Shown here in pieces: positions 1 to 38,609 of a stretch of DNA of 64,000 nucleotides. The first letter of the stretch is position 1; every line of letters starts with the position of its first letter. This DNA is from Pleurotus djamor (lineage: Eukaryota; Basidiomycota; Agaricomycetes; Agaricales; Pleurotaceae), in the NCBI GenBank assembly GCA_029747585.1, contig JAPEVF010000048.1, positions 1 through 64,000 of the forward strand. The letters are read 5' to 3'. The notes beneath the pieces were generated by a model that saw only the letters and a program-made list of their open reading frames with translations, ran no database searches and was not told where the DNA came from. The translations under genes and the position numbers were made by a program.

Positions 1-2370
1 CACTCAAGCATATTACACACAGCAGGGACTCCGGGAGTCTCCTTACCAGTCAAGTATATGGGACTCCCAGAGTCCCTAAATCCCCTCCAGCATAGTCAAG
101 TGGCGACTTCCCCTACTCCGCCATTTTCCACACAGCTAGGTACTCCCGGAGTCCCTACACCCATCAAACTGCTGGGACTCCAGGAGTCTGAACACCAGTA
201 AAAATGTATTATGTAGAGCTGGGACTCCCGGAGTCCCTACACTACTCCAGCATACCATGTAGAGTAGGGATTCCCAGACTACTCAAGTATACCACACAGC
301 GGGGACTCCCGGAATCCCTACACTGCTCAAGCATAATACATGCAGTGGGAACTCCCGGAGTCACCACACTAATCAAGCATATTACGCCTGGCTGGGACTC
401 CCAGAGTCCTTGCACTGCTCCAGTATATCCTAGCTTGCACTCCTGGAGTCCCGGAGTCCTTATACTGCTCAGGTAGAATACACCTTGACTCCCTGCACCC
501 ATTCAGTACATCACAGACAGCTGGAACTCCCAGAGTCCCTACACCAGTCAAGCACATCATGTGGCGCTGGAGCTCCCGGAGTCCCTACATCTGTTAGATA
601 TATATATATATATCACACAGCTGGGACTCCTGGAGTTCCTATGCCAGCCAAGTGTAACACAGTGGGGACTCCGGGAGTCCCTACATCACTCCAGCATATT
701 AGAGCAGGGATTCCTAGAGTTCCTACACTGCTCCCAGATATACTACTCAAGTAAACCAAGCAGCTGGGACTCCCAGAGTCCCTAAACCACTCCAGTGTAT
801 CATAGCTTGCACTTCCAGAGTCCCCACACTACTCCAGTATCGCACAGCTGGGACTCCTGGAGTCCCTACACTGCTCCAGCATAGTACACACAGCAGGGAC
901 TCCCAGACTCCCTAGTCCTGTCAAGCATAGTACAGCTTGCACTCCAAGAGCTGAGTGTATCATGTAGAGTAGGGACTCCCGGAGTCCCCACACCAGTCAA
1001 ACATCTATTACACCAGTCAAACATATCTCAGACAGCTGGGACTCCGGGAGTCCCTACATCACTCCAGCATACCATGTAGAGTAGGGATTCCCAGAGTCCC
1101 AGACTACTCAAGTATACCACAAAGCTGGGACTCCCGGAGTGCCTATGCCAGTCAAGTATAACACAGTGGGGACTCCCAGAGTCCCTACATCGCTTCAGCA
1201 TAGTATACCTGGGACTCCCGGAGTTCCTATACCACCCAGTATATCATGTAGTCTAGGGACTCCCGGAGTTCCTGCACTGCTCAAGCATATTACACCTGGC
1301 TGGGACTCCCGGAGTCCCTACACAATGCAGGTATATCACATAGCTGGGACTCCCAGAGTCCCCATACCAGGCGAGTGAATATCAGACACAGCAGGGACTC
1401 CGGGAGTCCCTATACTACTCAAGGATACTGCACGCAGAGTCATGACACCAGTCAAGCATATTACACACAGCAGGGACTCTGGGAGTCCCTAGACTGTTCC
1501 CACACATACTACTCAAGTATACCAAGCAGCTGGGACTCCGGGAGTCCCCAAATCCTGTCAGATATGCATATATCATAGAGCTGGGACTCCCGGAGTCCCT
1601 AAACCACTCCAGTGTATCATAACTTGCACTTCCAGAGTCCCCACACTACTCTACTATCATACAGCTGGGACTCCCGGAGTCCCTAGCCCTGTCAAGCATA
1701 GTATGGCTTGCATTCCAAGGGCTGAGTCTATCATGTAGAGTAGGGACTCCCGGAGTCCCCACACCAGTCAAGCATATTACACACCAGGGACTCCCAGAGT
1801 CCCCAACCCAATCAAGCATAGGACAGTAACGGACTCCGGGAGTCCCTAGACTACTCCAGCACATACTAACGTATGCCAAACACAGCTGGGACTCCCAGAG
1901 TCCCTACACCAGTCAAGCACATCCTGTAGAGCAGGAACTCCCGGAGTCCCAGCACCTGTCAAGGGTATCTTGTAGAGCTGGGACTCCCGGAGTCCCCAGG
2001 CTACTCAAGCGTATTCTCAAGCATAATATATACTGTGGGGACTCCCGGAGTCCCTATACAGAACAATTAGATATCATACACAGTTGGGAATCCCGGAGTC
2101 CCTACACTGCTCAAGTATACCATACTACAGCTGGGACTCCCGGAGTTCCTACACTGCTCCAGCATAGTACACACAACAGGGACTCCTGGAGTCTCTATAG
2201 ATACACCCACTCACCATTTGTGCTCAGGTTTGGACTCTGGGAGTCCCAGCTAATGTGTGCTTGGCTTGTGTTGGGACTCTAGGAGTGCCAGTTCCACTCT
2301 CTAGCTGGTGCAATTTTAGTTGGGACTCCCGGAGTCCCTATGCTACCTTGTACGTGGTGGGACTGCCAGA
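1..2370 (+). repeat. Palindromic satellite array, block 1
   Basis: About 48 copies of a 17-bp palindrome, GGGACTCC-(C/G)-GGAGTCCC, recur every 40-50 bp. The two 8-bp arms are exact reverse complements around one central base. The spacers are also related: many read roughly CTACACYRSTCAAGCATA then ACACAGCTG, so the true unit is a tandem repeat of about 45 bp whose palindrome is its best-conserved part. Degenerate copies mostly change the central CpG. Open frames here only translate the repeat (GTPGVP, GLPESL, GDSGSP) and are not genes. A short (TA)n run lies near 599-611. I do not recognise the family. Confidence 0.93.
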
Positions 2371-2925
2371 ATCCTAGCATGATCTGCTGTACCTTTCTCT
2401 ACTTCTTCCACATACCAACCATATCAGTAACCCTTTTCATTTCCACACTTGTGGTTATTCAAGTACTTGGGGTTATTGAAGTACTTGTGGTTATTCAAGC
2501 ACCTGTGGTTGTATAGAAAAGCTTCATGCAGACAATCTTTTCCTCCTTGTAACTTTCATATAAAACTTGAGGACATATCTTTCATGCATATATATATAAA
2601 TACCAAGAAACTTGATTTGAGTTTATATAATGAGATTCAATGGTTGGGAATACTACACAAAGTATAATCTTATTGAATATATCTTTCAAGTCTGTAGGAC
2701 TTTCATCTGGATGTTTTAGAAGTTGTAGATGTGGTAATGTTCATAAAGTCCTTTTCAATACTTTCTATATACTTGCAGTTTCAAATGAATGAAACTCATA
2801 AGTCTTATTATCTATTTCAGAGATGTTGAAACTTTGCTTCATGTTAGTATCCATTAGCTATCCATATGTTTGGAGTTTCAGATTCCCTATACTATATATC
2901 TCTACTACTACTCTCAGTATCAGCA
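2371..2925. other. A/T-rich core between satellite blocks
   Basis: This stretch has no copies of the palindrome and is clearly richer in A/T than its surroundings. It contains a short tandem motif near 2450-2510 (GTGGTTATTCAAGTACTTG variants, three copies) and no convincing coding region. It separates the two satellite blocks, which face opposite ways. Confidence 0.7.
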
Positions 2926-3865
2926 GAGACTCCCAGAGTCCCATTGTCTTCCACACCCTTCAGCAGGTGCAGCAGTAGTGAATGAGAATGGGACTCCCGG
3001 AGTCCCTACTCATTTCTGCTCCAGAGTTGATAAAGGTATTGGGACTCCCGGAGTCCCTTGACTAGAATGCTTGTCTGGTATAGGGACTCCGGGAGTCCCA
3101 GCTACTCTCCCTCCAACTTGACAAGTGGTGGGACTCTGGGAGTTCCTTCTCAGCCATGATTGATATATATGTGGCAGGGACTCTGGGAGTCCCAGTATCC
3201 ATTACTCATGCTACATCTGCAGGATGTGTTTGGGGACTCTGGGAGTCCCTGGCTGAGTAGGCTTGCTTGACATGTCTAGGGACTCCGGGAGTCCCTGCAA
3301 TAATATGCTTGACAGATGTAGGGACTCCCGGAGTTCCAGCTCTACATGAGGCACTTGAGTAGTCTGGGGACTCCGGGAGTTCCTTCTCAACTATGGTTGA
3401 TACATGTGGCAGGGACTCTGGGAGTCCCAGTATCAGTTGCTCCTGCTACATCTTGTGGGCACTCCGGGAGTCCCTAGTGTGTTATACTTGACTAGTGTGG
3501 GGACTCCCGGAGTCCCTAGCTGGGTAGGCTTGCTTGATATGTACTGGGACTCCGGGAGTCCCTGGCTTGCTCTCCTCTTGTCCCATGTCAGATTATCTAT
3601 GTCTAAGGACTCCGGGAGTCCCTAGTAGAATGTGCTTGACTGATGTTGGGACTCCGGGAGTCCCAGCTCTACACGATTTGCTTGACTAGTGGAGGGACTC
3701 CCAGAGTCCCTAATCTCCTCTACTCTTCTTCCCTCTCAGACATGGAAGGGAGTCCCTCTGCTGCTGTATGTGACTGGGCATGTGCAGGGACTCCGGGGGT
3801 CCCCAAGAATATACTACTGGAGAGGGTGAGGTAGTAGGGACTCCGGGAGTGCCAACTGCTCTACC
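2926..3865 (-). repeat. Palindromic satellite array, block 2 (inverted)
   Basis: About 20 further copies of the same palindrome. Here the spacers read as the reverse complement of block 1: for example 3625-3700 contains TGCTTGACTGATG and GATTTGCTTGACTAGTGG, which on the minus strand give the block-1 type CAGTCAAGCA. The block is therefore inverted relative to 1-2370. A last decayed copy lies near 4013-4030. No gene is supported. Confidence 0.9.
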
Positions 3866-3960
3866 CACAGCTTCTACCCATGTATATCAGGGACTCCATG
3901 ACTTTGCCACCCGAGCAGACCAGAAAAAGGAGTGCGAACAGTGCAATTTGCTGTCCTCTC

Positions 3961-3999
3961 GGGAGGATAAACCCTAAAACCTAGGGTTTATTTCCTCCC
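3961..3999. repeat. Short inverted repeat with AAACCCTA/TAGGGTTT arms
   Basis: The arms GGGAGGA-TAAACCCTA and TAGGGTTTA-TTTCCTCCC face each other across a 5-6 nt loop and form a nearly perfect hairpin of about 16 bp. The arm resembles telomeric repeat letters but there is only one copy per arm, so it is not a telomere tract. Confidence 0.8.
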
Positions 4000-4086
4000 T
4001 AGGGATGAAAAAAGGAGTCCCAAAAGTCCTTATAACCCCTTGCAACTTCTTCATCCTCCCTTCCCTCATCTTCGTCTTCACAACCC

Positions 4087-4412: not shown

Positions 4413-4817
4413 TAAGTAGGACAACCAATCTTTGTTTTATTTATCTATATTCAACTTATACTTGTACGTTTTCGTTTCATTCCTCCCCGTACCTATGTTT
4501 TCTTGGCCATGTTGATCTTTTTGTCGCGTCGAACGTCCGTACCTTGTATATCCCTTGTTCTTACTCAAACGTTTGACTCATTCAGACTTTTCTGCGCGTC
4601 TGCGACGCCTTGTTTCCCTTTACTTACCGTCATTAATTTCTGTCGCCCCTTCTATTCCTTGATAGCTATCTTACTTTACCAGCTGCTTCTATATGATGTT
4701 GCTTCTTGAACAATCAATATCTGAGACTGAGCCAGTACTCAGTGAATTTGAGACTTTGTCCGTGCGGATATAACCTGTGGATTTGTACAAGTCCGAAATG
4801 TTTACTGAAAGGTAGTA

Positions 4818-4889
4818 AGCCTCATGGTATAGTGGTAGTACTCATCACAATTCAGTGATGCGGTGTGGGTTCAATTCCCACTGAGGTCT
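4818..4889 (+). tRNA. tRNA-like Pol III unit, abnormal anticodon loop
   Basis: The sequence folds as a cloverleaf: acceptor AGCCTCA/TGAGGTC (position 1 unpaired, position 2 G-U), 4-bp D stem GTAT/GTAC with AGTGGTA loop, anticodon stem CATCA/TGATG, 4-nt variable loop, and a perfect T arm GTGGG-TTCAATT-CCCAC. The A box (TGGTATAGTGG) and B box (GGTTCAATTCC) are excellent and a T5 terminator follows near 4916. The anticodon loop is 8 nt (CAATTCAG), so no normal anticodon can be assigned. It is best read as a tRNA pseudogene, a SINE-type head or a divergent tRNA. Confidence 0.6.
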
Positions 4890-5021
4890 ATCCCTTATGA
4901 TGATCGAACATCATACTTTTTACAACTTATAAATAACTTCTAACTTTACTTTTGTCTCTTGAAGTCTAGTCGTGCGAGACTTCTTAAACTGGGGTTGACC
5001 CTAGTGGCAGAGTTGTGGCGA

Positions 5022-8329: not shown

Positions 8330-10560
8330 CGTCGCGGGCCGTTCTTCTCAAGATGCATGACTTGGACGTACTCTATCACTGGATCGCTGTCTCAAACACA
8401 AAGCGTTTCACATCATTTCATACCTACTAACTTCGTTATATGACGGCGAATACATCGATCACCCTACTAAGTACAGCCAACACCCGCCCACCCTTTCCTA
8501 TCCGCAATAGCGCGTATACTCTACTTACAATGGTGTCCACAGTGTAGCTATATTTACTACTCGAACGCATGGTGCCAAGCTCCACTCACACCGAATCTTT
8601 CCATGCAGTATGTTCATACTTCCTCCCTCCTTCGTGTTGTTCATTGCGGGTGTCATCCAGCTCGCTGGCATCGTCTTGCCGTGGCGGGAGGACTGTACGA
8701 TGATGACAGTTCTGCGAAGAATATGAGTCGAATGAAAAGACCGATGAATGACGGACTCACTTTCATCAAAGAATTCAGGCCCGGAACGGTTCCTTTCCGT
8801 CCGCACTCCTCAGCTACCTCGCATGTTTCATCTTCACACATCCATCACCACCGTAAAAGTACCAGCAGAAGGTCGGGGCTACGGGTGGAGAAGGCGCGTG
8901 GCGGTGGTGCCCAGCTCCGGCTCGCATGACGTCGATCGAGCTCGGTGGTGTTGTCCTCTTGGGTATCGACATGAGGGCTGAGACAATAAGAGGCTGACGA
9001 CTCAACGAGAGAAGGGCTGGGGGAGGGCGAATCATGATCCGTCGTGCAAGGGGTGATCTGAACGTCGCGTCGACCAGTTGGTTGGACGGTGGAATCAATT
9101 TAGTCATGGTAGTAGTCGACGTCTTTGCGCTGAGCCAGACATGCTCCAACCTAGAACGTCCTATGATCATCTACCCGCCGCTGCGAACGAAGGAACCGTT
9201 TCGAAGCCTTCAGACACGGCTACACCGACCATATCAACGACAGGCTCAGTTAAAGGGAAGGATGATGCGCTCACCGGCTTCGGACAAGATTATCTCAGGT
9301 ACAACATGACTCCCATCTTCATCGTCGGCCATCCCGAAAGTGCGAAGCCTGTGAGGCTGAAGGATCGCAGAGGGAGACGGCTGTTCAACAGCATGTAGGG
9401 CGTACGCGTCTCCTCTAACATAGGCTGATCATATTGCGAGCGAATGGTTGGAACTTTGGCGTAGGATGGGAAGCGAATCGTTGTGGTGGGTGGGTGTCCT
9501 TGGTATCCTGCCCATTTCCCTAGGCTATCCTCCGTCCTTCATTCGTCTAGCCCTCACGCCCGCTTCGTCGTCGTCCCCATTCATACCAAGATCGTCCATT
9601 CGCCGTCGAAGGTTCCCTACTTGTCCGGAGGAAGTTGTTGGATGTGGAGGAAGGTCAGAGAAAGCGACGGAATGCGAAATGAACGTTTGCTGCCGATAGG
9701 ACATGCAATAGTGACGGGAAGACTAGAGAAAGTGTTAGTAGCGAGATGAAAGCAGCGGGTGACTTCCTCACCAATATCATGGGTACGCTGGCATCGTGGT
9801 CGTTTGGCCTGATGGGAGGGACGCGTCATCTTGTCCACGTGATGACAGTGAGATAGGAGACAAGCGTTTTCGACCAGCGTTGCGCAATGAGAGGACAAGT
9901 GTCCGTTATCTTGACTATTGAAGCTTCCGAGACGATCTCTTATGTGCTCGAACTCTTGTTTCGCGCGCCAGACAACGCTTGGAAGAAAACCCGAGCTCAA
10001 GGATTTGGTTGGGTAGTTCTTAGACTCAGAGTGGCGTGTATAGCGACACAGGCATGAGGATTGTATCATACGATTAGGGTGCTACAATATTGTATGTACA
10101 TAGTGTAGGATCAAGCGAAATACGAGAGGAAACATGTACTCTACGCTGACAGGCAATCATCTTTCGGCGAGAAAACTAAAGTAATCGATGTGAGGTTCGG
10201 AACGACCTTAGAGCAATATGAGAACTTACTCTTGATAGTATATCAGAGGGTACCTCGCTTGAGGCGGTGGTCTCTGCGGACGGGCTGGGAGGTAGGATGG
10301 TTCGGGTGCTGTGCAGTTGAGGGGTCAGTAGGTAGTGAACACGCCATACGCACTGAGAGCCAGGGATACGACAAGAGTCGCAGTGCTTGGTAGGTCCTAG
10401 ATGGATGATACACGGTCAGTAAAGGTCAACAGAGAAACTAACGAAGATATACGCACCAAGATCCATGCCCTATGTAATTCAAATAATCCTCCATGCTTGA
10501 AATTGCGGTAACAGTCTTGATGATGGGTCCATCAGCGGTTGCGGATTCTTGAAAACGACG
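8330..10560. other. No supported gene
   Basis: Many overlapping short frames occur on both strands. None shows a recognisable domain, paralogue in the window or consistent splice chain. Confidence 0.5.
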
Positions 10561-10596
10561 GCCAGGAATGCGTAGGCCCGAGGGACATAGACACCC

Positions 10597-11166
10597 GGCT
10601 CCACGACGCTTCAGCACCGTGAATATGGGAGCCACGTCCTCGAGATTCCGTCCGATAAGCAGCTCCTCCGGCTCTACGACGCTTAAGCACCGTAAATATG
10701 GAGTGGCCGCTGGGAGGCCCGGGATTTGCACGGCTCTACGACGCTTCAGCACCGTAGATATGTGCGAACCCAAGCCTCGATGAATATCAGACAGCTCTCC
10801 TTGGCTCTACGACGCTCAAGCACCGTAGATATGAGGGAGCCGTCACCATCTCTCGACGCTGAACGAACGGCGACGTTTCATCCGGCTCTACGGCGCTTGA
10901 GCACCGTAGATATGGATGATCCAACGCGATCCGTCACCCGTGATCCACGCAAGCCATACTCAGAGGCTCCACGACGCTTGAGCACCGTAGATGAACTGAG
11001 ACGGCTGCTGATCAACCCGCAGCGCAGCGTAGACACCTATCGTGAGTACATAACATGGTTCATCCGGCTCTACGACGCTTAAGCACCGTAGATGTGGATG
11101 AACCATGGCTCTCGATCTCCTCGATGACCACGCACAGCTCTACGACGCTTGAGCACCGTAGATATA
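10597..11166. repeat. Array of eight hairpin-forming repeats
   Basis: Eight copies of a roughly 31-bp core start at about 10597, 10670, 10732, 10803, 10884, 10965, 11066 and 11136. The core begins GGCTCTACGACGCTT, has one variable base, and ends AGCACCGTAGATAT. CTACG pairs with CGTAG, and GCTT pairs with AGC around the variable centre. Outside the core the flanks differ between copies but are complementary within each: GCAC/GTGC at 10732, CTCAG/CTGAG at 10965, and an 11-bp perfect ATGGTTCATCC/GGATGAACCAT at 11066. Copies are 62-101 bp apart. The plus frame reads ALRRLSTVDM but no gene is supported. I know of no family with this form. Confidence 0.88.
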
Positions 11167-14100
11167 GGCATGATCATGGGGGGAGGAAAGAAAGAAAGAG
11201 GGAGAGCGCTGGAGATGGGAAGATATCAGTATCGTGGAAGCGAACAGGCGCAGATGATGCCTCGAGGTGATTTTACGCACGATGAGGATGGACTTGACCC
11301 GATTGGAGGAGAAAGGACGGCTCTGGCTTTTGTTTTGCCTTGGGGTTCTCATGACCTGCCAGTACTGGCGCTGGTATGGAAGAAACGGAACGGTGCGTGG
11401 ACAGCGTAACTCTAATTTGAAGGGAGCAAATGTCAGCGAATGGAGGAACGGACGGACATCACGAGCGCTCACCATTTGAGCATGGTCGTAGCAGGTCAAG
11501 GTCTATCGGCCGACGAGGTTCGAGGTCAGTCTTGAAGTATCGTGAAAAGCAACGACGGGATGGATGTTGTTGACCATCAATCCTGGAGGGACGACGCGAT
11601 CGGTATTGAGGAACATGCAGTGCTTGACCCATCTTCATCGTCGCCACGATGTCCAATGTCTCAGACGAGGGAATCTCCGCGGCGGATACGGTACTGAAGA
11701 CATGCTAGGTTACAGGACATGTTGATGGTGCCGTTGAGTTGCTTGAAGCCCTGCGCGTAATGGCATTCGTAATGGAAGGCATGGGTAAGGGAGTTCGGCC
11801 GGGTGGCTGGCCCAACCTCGCGCTGAGGTAGCCAGAAGACGACTAGTCTCGGGGCGGCGGGGAAAGGAAGAGGCAGAGACGTCCAAGCTTGTGACAGACC
11901 TACAGAGGACATCAATAACACGAACGGATTAGCTCGAAAGGATGGACTCACCAGCGTCAGACGAGACGTCGAGAACTACCTCTTAATCCTGTCCATCATC
12001 CATCTTCGCAGCCAATTCCTCGTCAACTTCCCCACGTTTCGCACTCAACACAACTTGTGGTCTCCTCGTGAAGTCCTGACTCCTCGCTTGAGTAACCTGG
12101 ACAACGCAGCCGTAGACGTTCAGGAGCTGGGATGTTGAAGCTAGAGGAAGAACGGTAATCGAACCATCGGGCAGAGTCGCGTCTTAAAGGGTACCTTAGT
12201 TCATGAAAACGGAGGAGGGAGATGAAGAAGGCTCACCTGCTTAGTATCCGCGATGACTTGGGCGCCATCCCGATGCTGTTAGAGGGGCAGCTAGATCGCA
12301 AGACCGCAATAACGTCCCCGCTGAATCTCCTCAAGTATCGAACACGTCATTTTCGAGAGCTGGAGGATCGATATTCCCAGTATTGCAGCTCTAAGGCTTC
12401 GGACACGCTGAACGATTTGTCAGAAGGATACTAAAGTCGAAATTCATTGGGTAACTCACCAGAATACAGCTTCAACAGCATCTATATAGGGAGTAGTGCG
12501 CACGTTCGGACCTGCCCCCAATGGCAGAGCCCGAGGTACTAACACATCCTCAGACTGCCAGCTCTGGGAGGCTACAAGCACAGGAGAACGTGTTGCGAAG
12601 GGCGGGACCTGGCGCGGATAGAGCAAATTGTCGATCGAGGAAGTGCGCATGGGACAGCAAATAAGAAGGAGTGGGCGGTCTGCAGAAGGTCGTTCGACGC
12701 TGGCGTTGGCAGGGAGCAAAAGGGCAAGCGTCGGTGGGAAAATACCTTTTCGGTACCAATGCCGGAGCCAATAGGCATCGACCAATTAGACTTCGAGTGA
12801 CGTCATATTTGAATGAGCCGACAGTTACTTCTTCGCTGGTCCAAAGCAAGTCCTCCCATCCACTCACATGGCTTTTTCTCGAACCCATTCTACCAGTAAA
12901 CCTGTCCATCGGCGCATACTGTACATGTCCTATGCACTCACAGTTCGAGCTGTCCAGGGCTTTGTCACCTGCGCTTTCATTCCCCTTCACTGTTCAGACT
13001 GGACCTGCACAAGACCTGCAACCTGCCTTGTCTTCAATGTTCATTTCACATAGTACACCGAGCAGTACGCTTTGACGGGAACAATTAGACTCAACCGCGG
13101 AACAAGAGAGACTTCGCCGAAAAGATACCTCGCTGAAGCGCTTGTGACGCGTACTTTCCCTCGCCGTCTAGCGGTTCTTTTGCTCTTCAAGCTTCAAGGC
13201 TAGACGGGCTTGTCAGGGAGTTTGAAGACGAGGACCGAGACTACACTGGTCAACGCCATTCGATCGCGACGCATACGACCGTTATCCCATTTCTTGCACC
13301 ACTGGATTCTCCTAGACTCATTCAACATGTCATCCGACGTCCTAGCTATGACGTTGCCGTCAGCGATAACACCAACGTTCCAATCGTGACCATTCGCACC
13401 GTTTGCTCGTCCATGCCTTTGTACTTCGATCAACGACTTCCAAGACCTTGTCGAGGTTACCTCCTTTTGATTCGGTGAGTACGCCACTCTCGTTTCGTCC
13501 TCTTCGTGCTTCCACTCTTCTCTGTGAGCGCGTAGCCTCACGATAATGCAACTATGGCTTCAATCGGCCTTACCCTGTCCTTCCAAGCGTCGCATCGCCC
13601 AATGGTCCCAAATACCCATGCCTCGTTGTTTCTCCATGGCTCCAGGCTCACCGGATGCCAAATTGCCAATGAAGACAAATTCACTGCACTCAAGTTCACG
13701 ACGCTCGAACGCGTAGCAGTAATCAAGCACGATGAACTAAATCTCAATGACATTGTCCCCTGGAGCGCAAGATTCAATATTCATATCGTCTAGTTCTCAT
13801 CGCCCAAATTTGGTGTCAACCACCCTTTTTCTCCACGTCGCGGCGAACGCAACCATGGCTGACATCTGAGGATCTCGGAAGCATACGTTCGTACCTCCCT
13901 GACCCATATATACCCCGTGTTTCAGTGAAATACTTTCCCCAACTCTCGGAGTGCGTTCACCTTTTTGACAAATCTGCTTCCTTGCTCGTTCTCGTTTCGC
14001 GTTTCTCCCTTGGTGTTTCTCATTTCCCATTTTCCACTTTTCATTTCTCCTTCTTTATGTTATTTTTCGCGTTTCGAGTTTCTCATTTGTTGTTTTACGT

Positions 14101-29616: not shown

Positions 29617-31239
29617 TCATTCTAGTAAGTATCGCACCCGCACCACTTCAACCAGTTCCTGAAGATACTTGACTTGAGAGTCCGTCATATCGCATTCCTC
29701 GAAAGTAAGATTCCTGATCGACATCTCATACAGTTTTCTTTCTTGAAGAATGTCGCGCAGTGCAACATACATTCCATTTTTATGCCCTCGCTTGTTACGA
29801 AAGCATGCTTTGTGAAAACGGATACATCGTAGCTCGGGATTGGGTGGTTGAGGTGAGTACTTTGATTTGAAGAGTAACCGTAGCATTTGGATATCGCAAT
29901 TTCGCAAGATGAGAGTCACCATCTTGGGAGAGCTTCGTATGAAGGTGTGGCCGTTGTTCGCGGTTAAGCCTTCGAGCGACAACGTGGGTGCTTCTGCGAA
30001 CGGAATCAACGCGCAGAGTCGAAGAAGTACATGCATATCTTCTTGTGCGACGCAGGGAAGCCAGCAAAGGAAGGAGGGCTGGGGGAGATGGGTAGATTCA
30101 TGGTCATCATGCCCGATATGTACGGCAAGCTCAAATAAGTCTTTGTTCAGCATCACGCTGACCATCTTCATAGACATTGCGGATGAGATGACCTTGGAGA
30201 TCGCCGATTTTAGGCCAGATATATCCGCAACTCGCAATGCATCGATACGGACACGCTCATAAAATATTTGTAGGGAAGGGGAGGTGGGGATGATGGGTTT
30301 GTTGAAGATGCTGAGGGTTGAGGCGTCGCTTGAAGACAGTTGGAGAAATTGTAAGCGGGGTAGAGTAACCGGTTGGAAATTGGGGTCAGCGCCTGGACCG
30401 CGTAGGCCGAAGATGATAATTTTTTGTATGTTTGGCAGACATTTGAGGGTGCTGAGCAGCCAGGGTATAGTGGCGCAATGGTCAATATGAATCCCCCCAA
30501 TCCCAAGATGAGTGAGATGAGGCATGGACTCGAAGTGCGCGTGCGATGGTAATGGAGCTCCAAAGAGAGACAGTGATCGCAAAGAAGACAACCCAAACCA
30601 AGCCGCCCCAGAAAAGTGGCCAGTATCTCTTTCTACGGAGATGGTCAGCCGTTCTAATAGTGATGCTGAGTTGTTACTTGAGATGGGCGTAAGCACTTTA
30701 GAAAGTGCGGTATGGTCGGGGAGGTCCATCCAGAGCTCCCGAAGTCGAGGGCCTTGAGATATGAGACGATCGATCAGCGGGCAAAGACTGTCTCCAACAT
30801 CGGTAGGGATCATGACGCTAATCGAGAGGAGTGCGGCCTTGGAGAGAACCAGCATCTTTGAAGCATGTGGAGAGTTCAAGTTTATTCTAGTCCAGAATTG
30901 CGGGTCGCCCACTATTTGATCATGCCAAGCATGGCAGACTCGCAGTAGCACGACCCATTGAGCATGTGTATCAGGGCCAAACGCAGTATATGGGCAGGAA
31001 GCTTCGGCTTCGAGCTTTACAAAGAGAAAGATGGCCCTCAAGACATCGTCGGGAAGTTGGTTCACCGCGCAGTACGTATTGCGGCGGATGTTTAGGGCTT
31101 TGATGTGTTCTTTGTGACGTTTGACTTCAGCGACGATTTCTTCGTCGATGAGGTTCTGAGCATTGAAGTCAGTTGCGATCGCCTGTGCGATTCAGGTGAG
31201 TACTTCCTCAGCGCAATACCGGAGGCGCATTCTTACCAT
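29617..31239 (-). CDS. F-box protein FBX-1 of a three-member paralogue set
   Basis: The exon-1 coding part is only the ATG (31239-31237), followed by a 54-nt intron (GTAAGA...CGCACAG); exon 2 is 31182-29617. The product is 522 residues. It begins MAIATDFNAQNLIDEEI, a short coiled-coil stretch, then RRNTYCAVNQLPDDVL, VVLLRVCHAWHDQI and FWTRINLNS, a canonical F-box, followed by about ten irregular LRR-like repeats ending near VVRVRYLLE. Paralogues at 36996 and 42113 align over their whole length, including RRNTYC-x-(V/I)NQLP. The start choice rests on the same ATG-intron arrangement in FBX-2. Predicted substrate receptor of an SCF E3 ligase; the target is unknown. Confidence 0.85.
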
Positions 31240-36995: not shown

Positions 36996-38609
36996 TCAAG
37001 GTGACCCATCCCATGAACCGTGTACCACCTCGACAAGACGGCTCAGCTCGTCCAAGGACGTATCCACGAAATGACATTCACATATCATCAGCTTCTTGAT
37101 TGGTATTGAATGCCGCGCCCTCTCACGAAGAATGCTCATTAATAGATGAAAAGTTGTGTTTTCTTCTCCTTCTACGGTGCAAAAATTCGTGAGTTCGAAG
37201 CAAAGGCACACGAGCTTGGGATTGGGTGGGTCTTCCTCGATGTCGGATTTGAGAAGTGATTCGAGAACGTGTGGGGTGCAATCATCCAGAATCATCGTTT
37301 CAATGTCTGTATATGATGAGATGAAGGAGAGTGGTGCTGTTCCTATGTGGTCGGGATTTATATGATGGACAATGAGAAGCGAGGCTTTGTGGAGTAGGGG
37401 CAAGTCGCAGAGTTGGAGTAAGACGTGCATGTCCTCTGGAGGTACGAGGGGAAGCGTACATCGGATGGAACGACTGCCCAGATGGCCAGGACGATCAGGT
37501 GGACCATATACGCGAAGTAGGAATTCATTGACAAGCCAAAGCTCGACTGTGTGTATGGTCATTGGAAGTGTTAAGACTCCGGACATCGTGGTCTTCAAGC
37601 CCGAGAGATCTGTGGCTGCGAAGCCCTGTGCCCTGGCGTTTGCATATCCAACACCGAGTGCCTTCAAGCAAGGGGTATCGATATAGTCGAAGATGCTAAG
37701 GGTTGACGCATCATATGAAGTGATGGAAAGAGACTTCAAGGAGGGGAGCGATACTCGGGTGGACGTGGGATCAACGAGTCGACCACACAACTCCCAAATA
37801 TCTACGTCCTGTAAGTTCGGTGACGAACTAAAAATCTCTAGGAGCCAAGAAGTGGTGACTTGATGGTCAGGAAGCTGAGAGGATATTCGGAGATGTGTGA
37901 GCTTGGGCATAGCATGGACGTTTGACGGTAAGGGAGCTTGAGAAAGGCTCAGCTCGCGGAGGGAGGGAAAGTCCAACCAGATCTTTCCATGCAGCTTTCC
38001 TGAGCCTGACACCTGGATAGCCAGCCGTTGCAGATGTGGTGCAGAGCAGTCGGGGGGAATGAGTGAAAGAACCCTAGGCAGAGTAGCAGGTTCGTAGATA
38101 TCCATTAATAATGCCTGAAGTCGGGCACTTTGAGACACGGTGTCAACGATTGACGTCCAAAGTCCCTCATCGGCATGAATGGGAATGCGGAAAGACATTT
38201 GAAGAGGGGAGTCTTTCGAGAGATTCAGCATGCGCAAGGCCTGAGTTGAATTCAGGTTGATGGAGGACCAGAGGAAAGGGTTGTTGTGGATGATGTCGTG
38301 CCATGCCTGGCAAACTTGCAGCAACACGATCCACTCTTCAAATACCACTTGTCTGAACGGTCCCGAAGAGCAGGTTTGTAGCTGCACCGCATAGAAAATA
38401 GATACTAAAACATCATCCGGAAGTTGATTGATGGCGCAATATGTATTTCGTCGCATGTTCAGGGTTTTCATGGCCTTTTCGTGTCGTTTGATCTCTGCGT
38501 CGATCTCTTCATCAACAAGACTCTGAGCGGCGAAGTTCGTTCGGATGCCCTACGCTAATGCGTCAGCTGCCTGATTTTCATTTTTCCATCAGATCAGTAC
38601 ACCTACCAT
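36996..38609 (-). CDS. F-box protein FBX-2 of the paralogue set
   Basis: Coding exon 1 is only the ATG (38609-38607); the 57-nt intron (GTAGGT...GCGTAG) leads to exon 2, 38549-36996, for 518 residues. The N-terminus MGIRTNFAAQSLVDEEIDAE runs into RRNTYCAINQLPDDVLVSIF and VLLQVCQAWHDIIHNNPFLW, a clear F-box. Repeated leucine-rich segments follow (MPKLTHLRISSQ, SLPSLKSLSITSYD). It aligns from end to end with FBX-1 and FBX-3. It lies 5.8 kb from FBX-1 in the same orientation, with the TDG gene and another F-box-like gene between. Predicted SCF substrate receptor. Confidence 0.85.

Follow-up and report, generated by a model that had tools for sequence, protein, structure and literature searches.

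The stretch analysed here, referred to as the window, spans 64,000 nucleotides (nt) of a contig of the mushroom Pleurotus djamor (JAPEVF010000048.1, positions 1–64,000). At positions 10597–11165 it carries an array of eight consecutive hairpins, which is the subject of this work and may belong to a long noncoding RNA (lncRNA) gene transcribed from the minus strand. The original prediction, made by reading the window, had described eight hairpins with a conserved core and self-complementary outer arms; these were present, as were the individual arms it quoted. The eight core copies, each of about 30 bp, follow one another at intervals of 73, 62, 71, 81, 81, 101 and 70, and dinucleotide shuffling of the window gave a core match in 0 of 100 shuffles. 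All hairpins are numbered along the minus strand and are listed with their bit scores under covariance model R1, described below, and the z-scores of their folds. Hairpin 1 (11126–11174; copy 8 of the original prediction) scored 63.3 bits, with a z-score of −4.41 and an internal loop of ATA/GCT, and hairpin 2 (11056–11104; 66.8 bits), which has the longest perfect arms, had z-scores of −4.74 on the minus and −6.84 on the plus strand. Hairpins 3 (10955–11003; 50.9 bits, z −2.06), 4 (10874–10922; 64.2 bits, z −3.98, with G-C replacing one core G-U), 5 (10793–10841; 57.1 bits, z −5.03), 6 (10722–10770; 64.3 bits, z −3.59) and 7 (10660–10708; 65.0 bits, z −2.28) come next. The series ends with hairpin 8 (10587–10635; 56.8 bits, formerly copy 1), with z-scores of −2.30 on the minus strand versus +1.02 on the plus strand and a double change from U-A to C-G. 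That change, read earlier as T-A to C-G on both sides of the core, is real and occurs in 14 of the 82 distinct copies of the genome-wide alignment.

A protein-coding repeat with one open frame across the copies was not found in the window array, where stop codons interrupt each of the three RNA-strand frames and five of the seven spacings are not multiples of three. Among 12 candidate protein relatives of an array frame, none reached E ≤ 10. The linkers between hairpins amount to 165 bases with 22% U, and the longest U run in the array is 3.

The assembly of P. djamor (55.86 Mb in 1413 contigs) was searched for further copies. Allowing up to three mismatches, the core gave at least 80 matches and the reversed pattern none, with a single orientation within each array. 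A covariance model, the approach suggested earlier, was also used; this model, R1, detected 85 hairpins at E < 1e-5 in 309 kb of loci, all within arrays or remnants, its training set being 83 of these same 85. The hairpins are distributed over C490 (11), C553 (10), C840, which is the window (8), C907 (6), C970 (8), C975 (8), C1044 (9), C1149 (8) and C1191 (13), and over two remnants, C710 and the end of C490, with two hairpins each; in a further remnant, C398, an additional first hairpin survives in degraded form, preceded by a motif-like sequence. When the window array served as a DNA query, 24 matches at E ≤ 1 were returned, each within an array or one of the remnants (C710, C490 end and C398). 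The arrays align colinearly and most of their other flanks do not, which identifies them as paralogues of the whole array; C840/C970, C490/C1191 and C1149/C975 form closer duplicate pairs, either paralogues or alleles. The flanks of the core, reported earlier as unrelated between copies, are indeed so within one array, but similar flanks and hairpins recur at the equivalent position across paralogous arrays. The arms thus look old and diverged, and, contrary to the earlier argument, no special mechanism is needed to supply each copy with new ones. Alignment A1 was built from 83 of 106 listed places, 82 rows being distinct and used for covariation, after exclusion of one spacer of the palindrome array, the diverged copy L019 and 21 places at which the same hairpins had been picked up again on the opposite strand. 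The covariation counts likewise omit two hairpins found later with the model (L014:4788 and L017:4627) and the C398 remnant.

Individual arrays show peculiarities of their own. At the 5′ end of C1191, and less so in C490 and C553, two hairpin types alternate, a pattern suggestive of tandem duplication of a two-hairpin unit (L017 4160–4570). In the C975 array (L014 4300–4910), which seems to be a copy in decay, the cores are more diverged and the 3′ part fails to align with the duplicate. C1044 has a short-looped hairpin, whose arms match perfectly over about 15 bp, immediately upstream of the array's first hairpin (L015, around 695–745), at a site taken by a CT-rich tract in several other arrays.

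The core was conserved in all eight window copies, as predicted, but its constant mismatches belong to the plus-strand view only. There, two neighbouring mismatches, A.C and C.A, interrupt the core; on the minus strand these become G-U and U-G, and the core forms a continuous 10-bp helix, UCUACGGUGC/GCGUCGUAGA. The head of each hairpin consists of this helix with its tandem G-U and a UNAA tetraloop, beneath which lies a 3×3 internal loop. The UNAA loop was found in 80 of the 83 aligned copies (UUAA 35, UCAA 27, UGAA 16, UAAA 2), and the two wobble columns held standard pairs in all 164 cells of the 82 distinct copies (154 G-U, 6 G-C and 4 U-A). The folding energy of the whole array was −302.4 kcal/mol for the minus strand (z −9.7; mean of 20 shuffles −236.0, standard deviation 6.9) and −242.8 kcal/mol for the plus strand (z −5.85; mean of 20 shuffles −201.0, standard deviation 7.1). 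When the eight copies were folded singly as 90-nt segments against shuffles, as the original prediction had advised, z-scores ranged from −2.06 to −5.03 on the minus strand and from −6.84 to +1.02 on the plus strand. Hairpin 2, at 11066, was the one copy with a better value on the plus strand; despite this, the plus-strand reading fitted the whole-array fold and the flank shuffles described below more poorly and was rejected. Taken together, a structured RNA on the minus strand is very probable.

Pairing between the two arms of each copy was compared with chance in two ways, both of them excluding a diverged copy located near 16 kb in C1044. In the first, arms were swapped with those of other, dissimilar copies. 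On the minus strand, all eight window copies formed own-arm duplexes more stable than every one of the 52 cross-copy swaps (mean −21.1 versus −11.3 kcal/mol); on the plus strand, five of eight fell within the best 5% of swaps. Across the 83 genome copies and 6384 swaps, the top 5% included the own-arm duplexes of 38 copies on the minus strand and 27 on the plus strand, and the top 1% those of 22 and 12, respectively. In the second, the core was kept fixed while the flanks were dinucleotide-shuffled, with 100 shuffles per copy and a threshold of p ≤ 0.05. The window copies passed in 8/8 cases on the minus strand and 4/8 on the plus strand; genome-wide, 43/83 passed on the minus and 26/83 on the plus strand. 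The expectation that arms pair better than shuffled flanks was therefore confirmed for every window copy on the minus strand and, genome-wide, for about half of the copies taken singly, so that many copies outside the window have arms that are only partly paired in these tests.

Covariation was evaluated in the 82 distinct copies. The apical core helix was paired in 98.7% of cells and the nine outer arm pairs in 66.5%; in-register pairing amounted to 83.4%, and sliding the partners by 1–3 columns reduced it to 33.9–44.9%. Double-changed cells numbered 232, against 106.2 (standard deviation 10.8) in shuffles, and none of 500 shuffles reached 232. The covariation score was 0.332 versus 0.180 for shuffled rows, although kinship among rows inflates such scores. 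Most of this covariation appears to lie between hairpin positions, and hence to be old. The data thus support the structure, its covariation and the existence of a family, and the selection on structure put forward by the original prediction, taken as a family of structured RNAs, was supported by the arm swaps, the minus-strand folds, covariation and the flank shuffles.

The surroundings of the array are consistent with a transcription unit. Upstream on the minus strand, at 11258–11271 and about 110 nt before the first core, lies the motif ATCACCTCGAGGCA, a putative promoter element that matches perfectly at no other place in the 10 kb examined. Five of the nine arrays (the window, C490, C553, C970 and C1149) have it at about −87 to −110 relative to the first core, where it is the best site of the locus. 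A pyrimidine-rich tract at 11178–11206 (minus strand; purine-rich on the plus strand), read directly in the sequence, may mark the transcription start region, and several other arrays have CT-rich sequence ahead of their first hairpin. Past the last hairpin, a putative 60-nt intron spans 10397–10456 (minus strand; GTGCGT...CTAG with a CTGAC branch site), and the same strict pattern occurs in C970. Within 250 nt past the last hairpin this pattern was present in 4 of 11 loci; the opposite strand had it in none of the 11, and background bins in 10 of 408. Identity between C840 and C970, calculated per 100-nt bin, was 41–59% from −899 to −200, rose to 66% and 84% in the two bins nearest the array on that side and 86–97% within it, and remained at 62–85% for about 1.2 kb beyond. 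The latter segment, 9370–10586 on the minus strand, would make up the rest of the unit; a conserved reading frame was not recognised there, and tblastn matches, among those listed, were spread over frames. The C490/C1191 pair had a similar profile, with 94–98% just past the array, so that two of three duplicate pairs are conserved beyond the last hairpin and not far upstream. The strand-biased fold, the retained G-U columns and this one-sided conservation suggest a transcribed RNA. From these signals we infer the strand of transcription, and the transcript is probably spliced and noncoding.

We propose that the region is the 5′ part of a lncRNA gene, with minus-strand transcription from about 11.2 kb leftward and a first exon that would contain the eight consecutive hairpins. 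Each hairpin would present a constant head on a stem of free sequence in which pairing is kept. A near-constant head on a stem constrained mainly to pair is what would be expected of a binding site held up by a stalk; the repeated head might then be bound by one RNA-binding protein, with the RNA as a scaffold or sponge and the stems merely holding the heads out. With 6–13 sites per molecule, avidity for that protein would be the simplest mechanism, although both the protein and the avidity are guesses. The window gene would be one of about nine paralogous arrays in P. djamor. As a whole, the statement that this is a minus-strand, spliced and structured lncRNA acting as a protein platform is, in our judgement, evenly poised.

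Several results weigh against this proposal. Conservation in C1149/C975 runs the other way (68–99% upstream and 33–47% downstream), which would fit loss of the 3′ part from one copy. The scan for ATCACCTCGAGGCA gave no good site in C907, C975 or C1044, and in C1191 the best site is at about −244, not in the expected place. The strict intron pattern is limited to four of the eleven loci, which are two duplicate pairs. The excess of G-U over A-C in the arms does not discriminate between strands, with 31 versus 16 in register and 30 versus 9 when slid by one; for all copies the figures were 91 versus 44, and 123 versus 79 in shuffles. This asymmetry was dropped as a strand test since the slid control was equally skewed. 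Column pairs changed on both sides numbered 11, which 424 of 500 shuffles reached. Finally, changes between recent duplicates bore little sign of compensation: in 37 hairpin pairs with 620 arm pairs, drawn from five pairs of paralogous arrays, a change in one arm alone preserved the pair in 73 cases and disrupted it in 74; double changes numbered 21, little more than the 15.0 expected, and 10 of them were still paired. The recent duplicates therefore lend weak support to compensation.

The main rival is a small-RNA precursor, in which Dicer would cut each hairpin, the constant head being a processing signal and the variable arms guides. Consecutive long-stemmed hairpins with variable arms and constant heads fit it, but the arms are similar by position across paralogous arrays rather than renewed, the stems contain an internal loop and often bulges, and no target of that length outside array-family loci was found at E ≤ 1 in a search that skips very common words and may miss short targets; on balance we consider it unlikely. 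Rather improbable, too, is a eukaryotic locus type in which one spliced RNA carries many guide hairpins, whose constant processing heads would recruit one machine while free, position-specific arms would provide every hairpin with a partner of its own; a fungal lncRNA family whose many paralogues share a defined, covarying and modular protein platform would be just as new.

That the array forms a highly structured 5′ leader of a protein-coding mRNA, controlling its translation, would agree with its place at the presumed 5′ end and with the intron-like signals after it. Protein-level matches between unrelated arrays were few, however (C553/C1044 and C710/C907 among the matches listed), and their distances from the arrays were not equivalent. 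In C490/C1191, the longest of the matching downstream frames tested carried frame-shifting indels, and its substitutions were distributed 1, 3, 4 by codon position. Among ten larger frames neighbouring the arrays no common neighbour gene was found, and the two with Pfam matches (NACHT and WD40) each lie more than 2 kb from the array, which makes such a leader very unlikely. About as unlikely is a non-autonomous mobile element, or its remnant, that spread the array. The surroundings of most arrays do not align and truncated copies exist (C710, C490 end, C398); yet the duplicated flanks vary in extent between pairs and look like segmental duplication, and no terminal inverted repeats were found at the ends of the window array, the only inverted repeats of at least 12 nt reported by a repeat finder at 10000–11800 being one hairpin's own arms.

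The original prediction had offered a structured-RNA family, a cruciform-binding array or a mechanism copying one arm onto the other; the first was retained, whereas the other two are disfavoured. A cruciform-forming, protein-binding array working as double-stranded DNA would account for the copies whose arms pair well on either strand and for the plus-strand z-score of hairpin 2, but only one strand folds better and has an unbroken head helix, the tandem G-U of the core is retained with standard pairs throughout, and conservation is one-sided in two of three duplicate pairs, so we regard it as scarcely probable. Template switching, which would create palindromes without selection, could yield different complementary arms at different positions and little compensation between recent duplicates, but perfect arms occur in only some copies and the internal loop and tandem wobbles, which should tend to vanish, persist in most, so that it is the least plausible of all.

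Elsewhere in the window, positions 25–3853 hold 66 copies (up to four mismatches) of the palindrome GGGACTCCCGGAGTCCC, often about 45 bp apart and separated by looser spacers, whose orientation by eye flips at about 2.3–2.9 kb, giving one large inverted arrangement. Among the matches listed, the palindrome also occurs in C64, which overlaps window positions 2620–4038 at 99.5%, and in a smaller array in C1019. The hairpin core and the spacers of this palindrome array, at 1–3.9 kb, were alike by eye in about 16 of 20 bases, which was left as a probable coincidence. A tRNA-like gene lies at 4817–4890 (Rfam tRNA, 44.2 bits; four-base anticodon attc by ARAGORN). F-box-like proteins are encoded on the minus strand at 29617–31191, just below the Pfam cut-off, and at 36996–38549, the latter with several relatives in P. 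djamor. An F-box protein of the window was 100% identical to ONZ45_g3064 of P. djamor over 86% of the query.

Comparison with known families was made against Rfam release 15. In the window two tRNAs alone reached the gathering score, with nothing in the array, and none did so in nine further loci; below threshold, sR48 (17.2 bits against a cut-off of 40) overlapped hairpin 8 and SNORD48 (12.5 bits against 36) fell outside the array. The exact core was absent from IMG/VR and from prokaryote genomes, which says little about other fungi, and no paper on these arrays appeared in the literature listings examined, which is not proof of absence. In CRISPR-like arrays the direct repeats are constant and the spacers are unrelated and show no mutual pairing, whereas the flanks here pair within each copy. 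Clustered microRNA-like precursors of fungi carry several hairpins per transcript, and their mature arm is more conserved than the loop end; in the array it is the apical helix that is near-constant and the arms that vary. The meiRNA of fission yeast and the roX RNAs of Drosophila are lncRNAs that gather a protein through repeated motifs, those of meiRNA being short and unstructured and roX boxes few. To our knowledge, few fungal lncRNAs have an evolutionarily supported structure.

In its proposed mode of action the array comes closest to the Xist A-repeat, which lies in the 5′ region of an lncRNA, consists of 7.5–8.5 conserved units in tandem with a tetraloop hairpin and is thought to be a protein platform (PMC5742192). 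The likeness lies in tandem copies of one structured unit, eight in the window and 6–13 per full array. The two do not belong to the same class, because the loop, linkers and mode of pairing differ: the A-repeat has an AUCG tetraloop and U-rich linkers, compared with UNAA in 80 of 83 copies and linkers of 22% U here, where each unit closes its own stem and about nine paralogous loci exist in the fungus. The family offers a defined unit in 85 instances, with internal duplicates in one cultivated mushroom, so that head, stem and copy number can be studied one by one. Should the platform reading hold true, repeat-domain lncRNAs working in the manner of the Xist A-repeat would have arisen independently in mushrooms.
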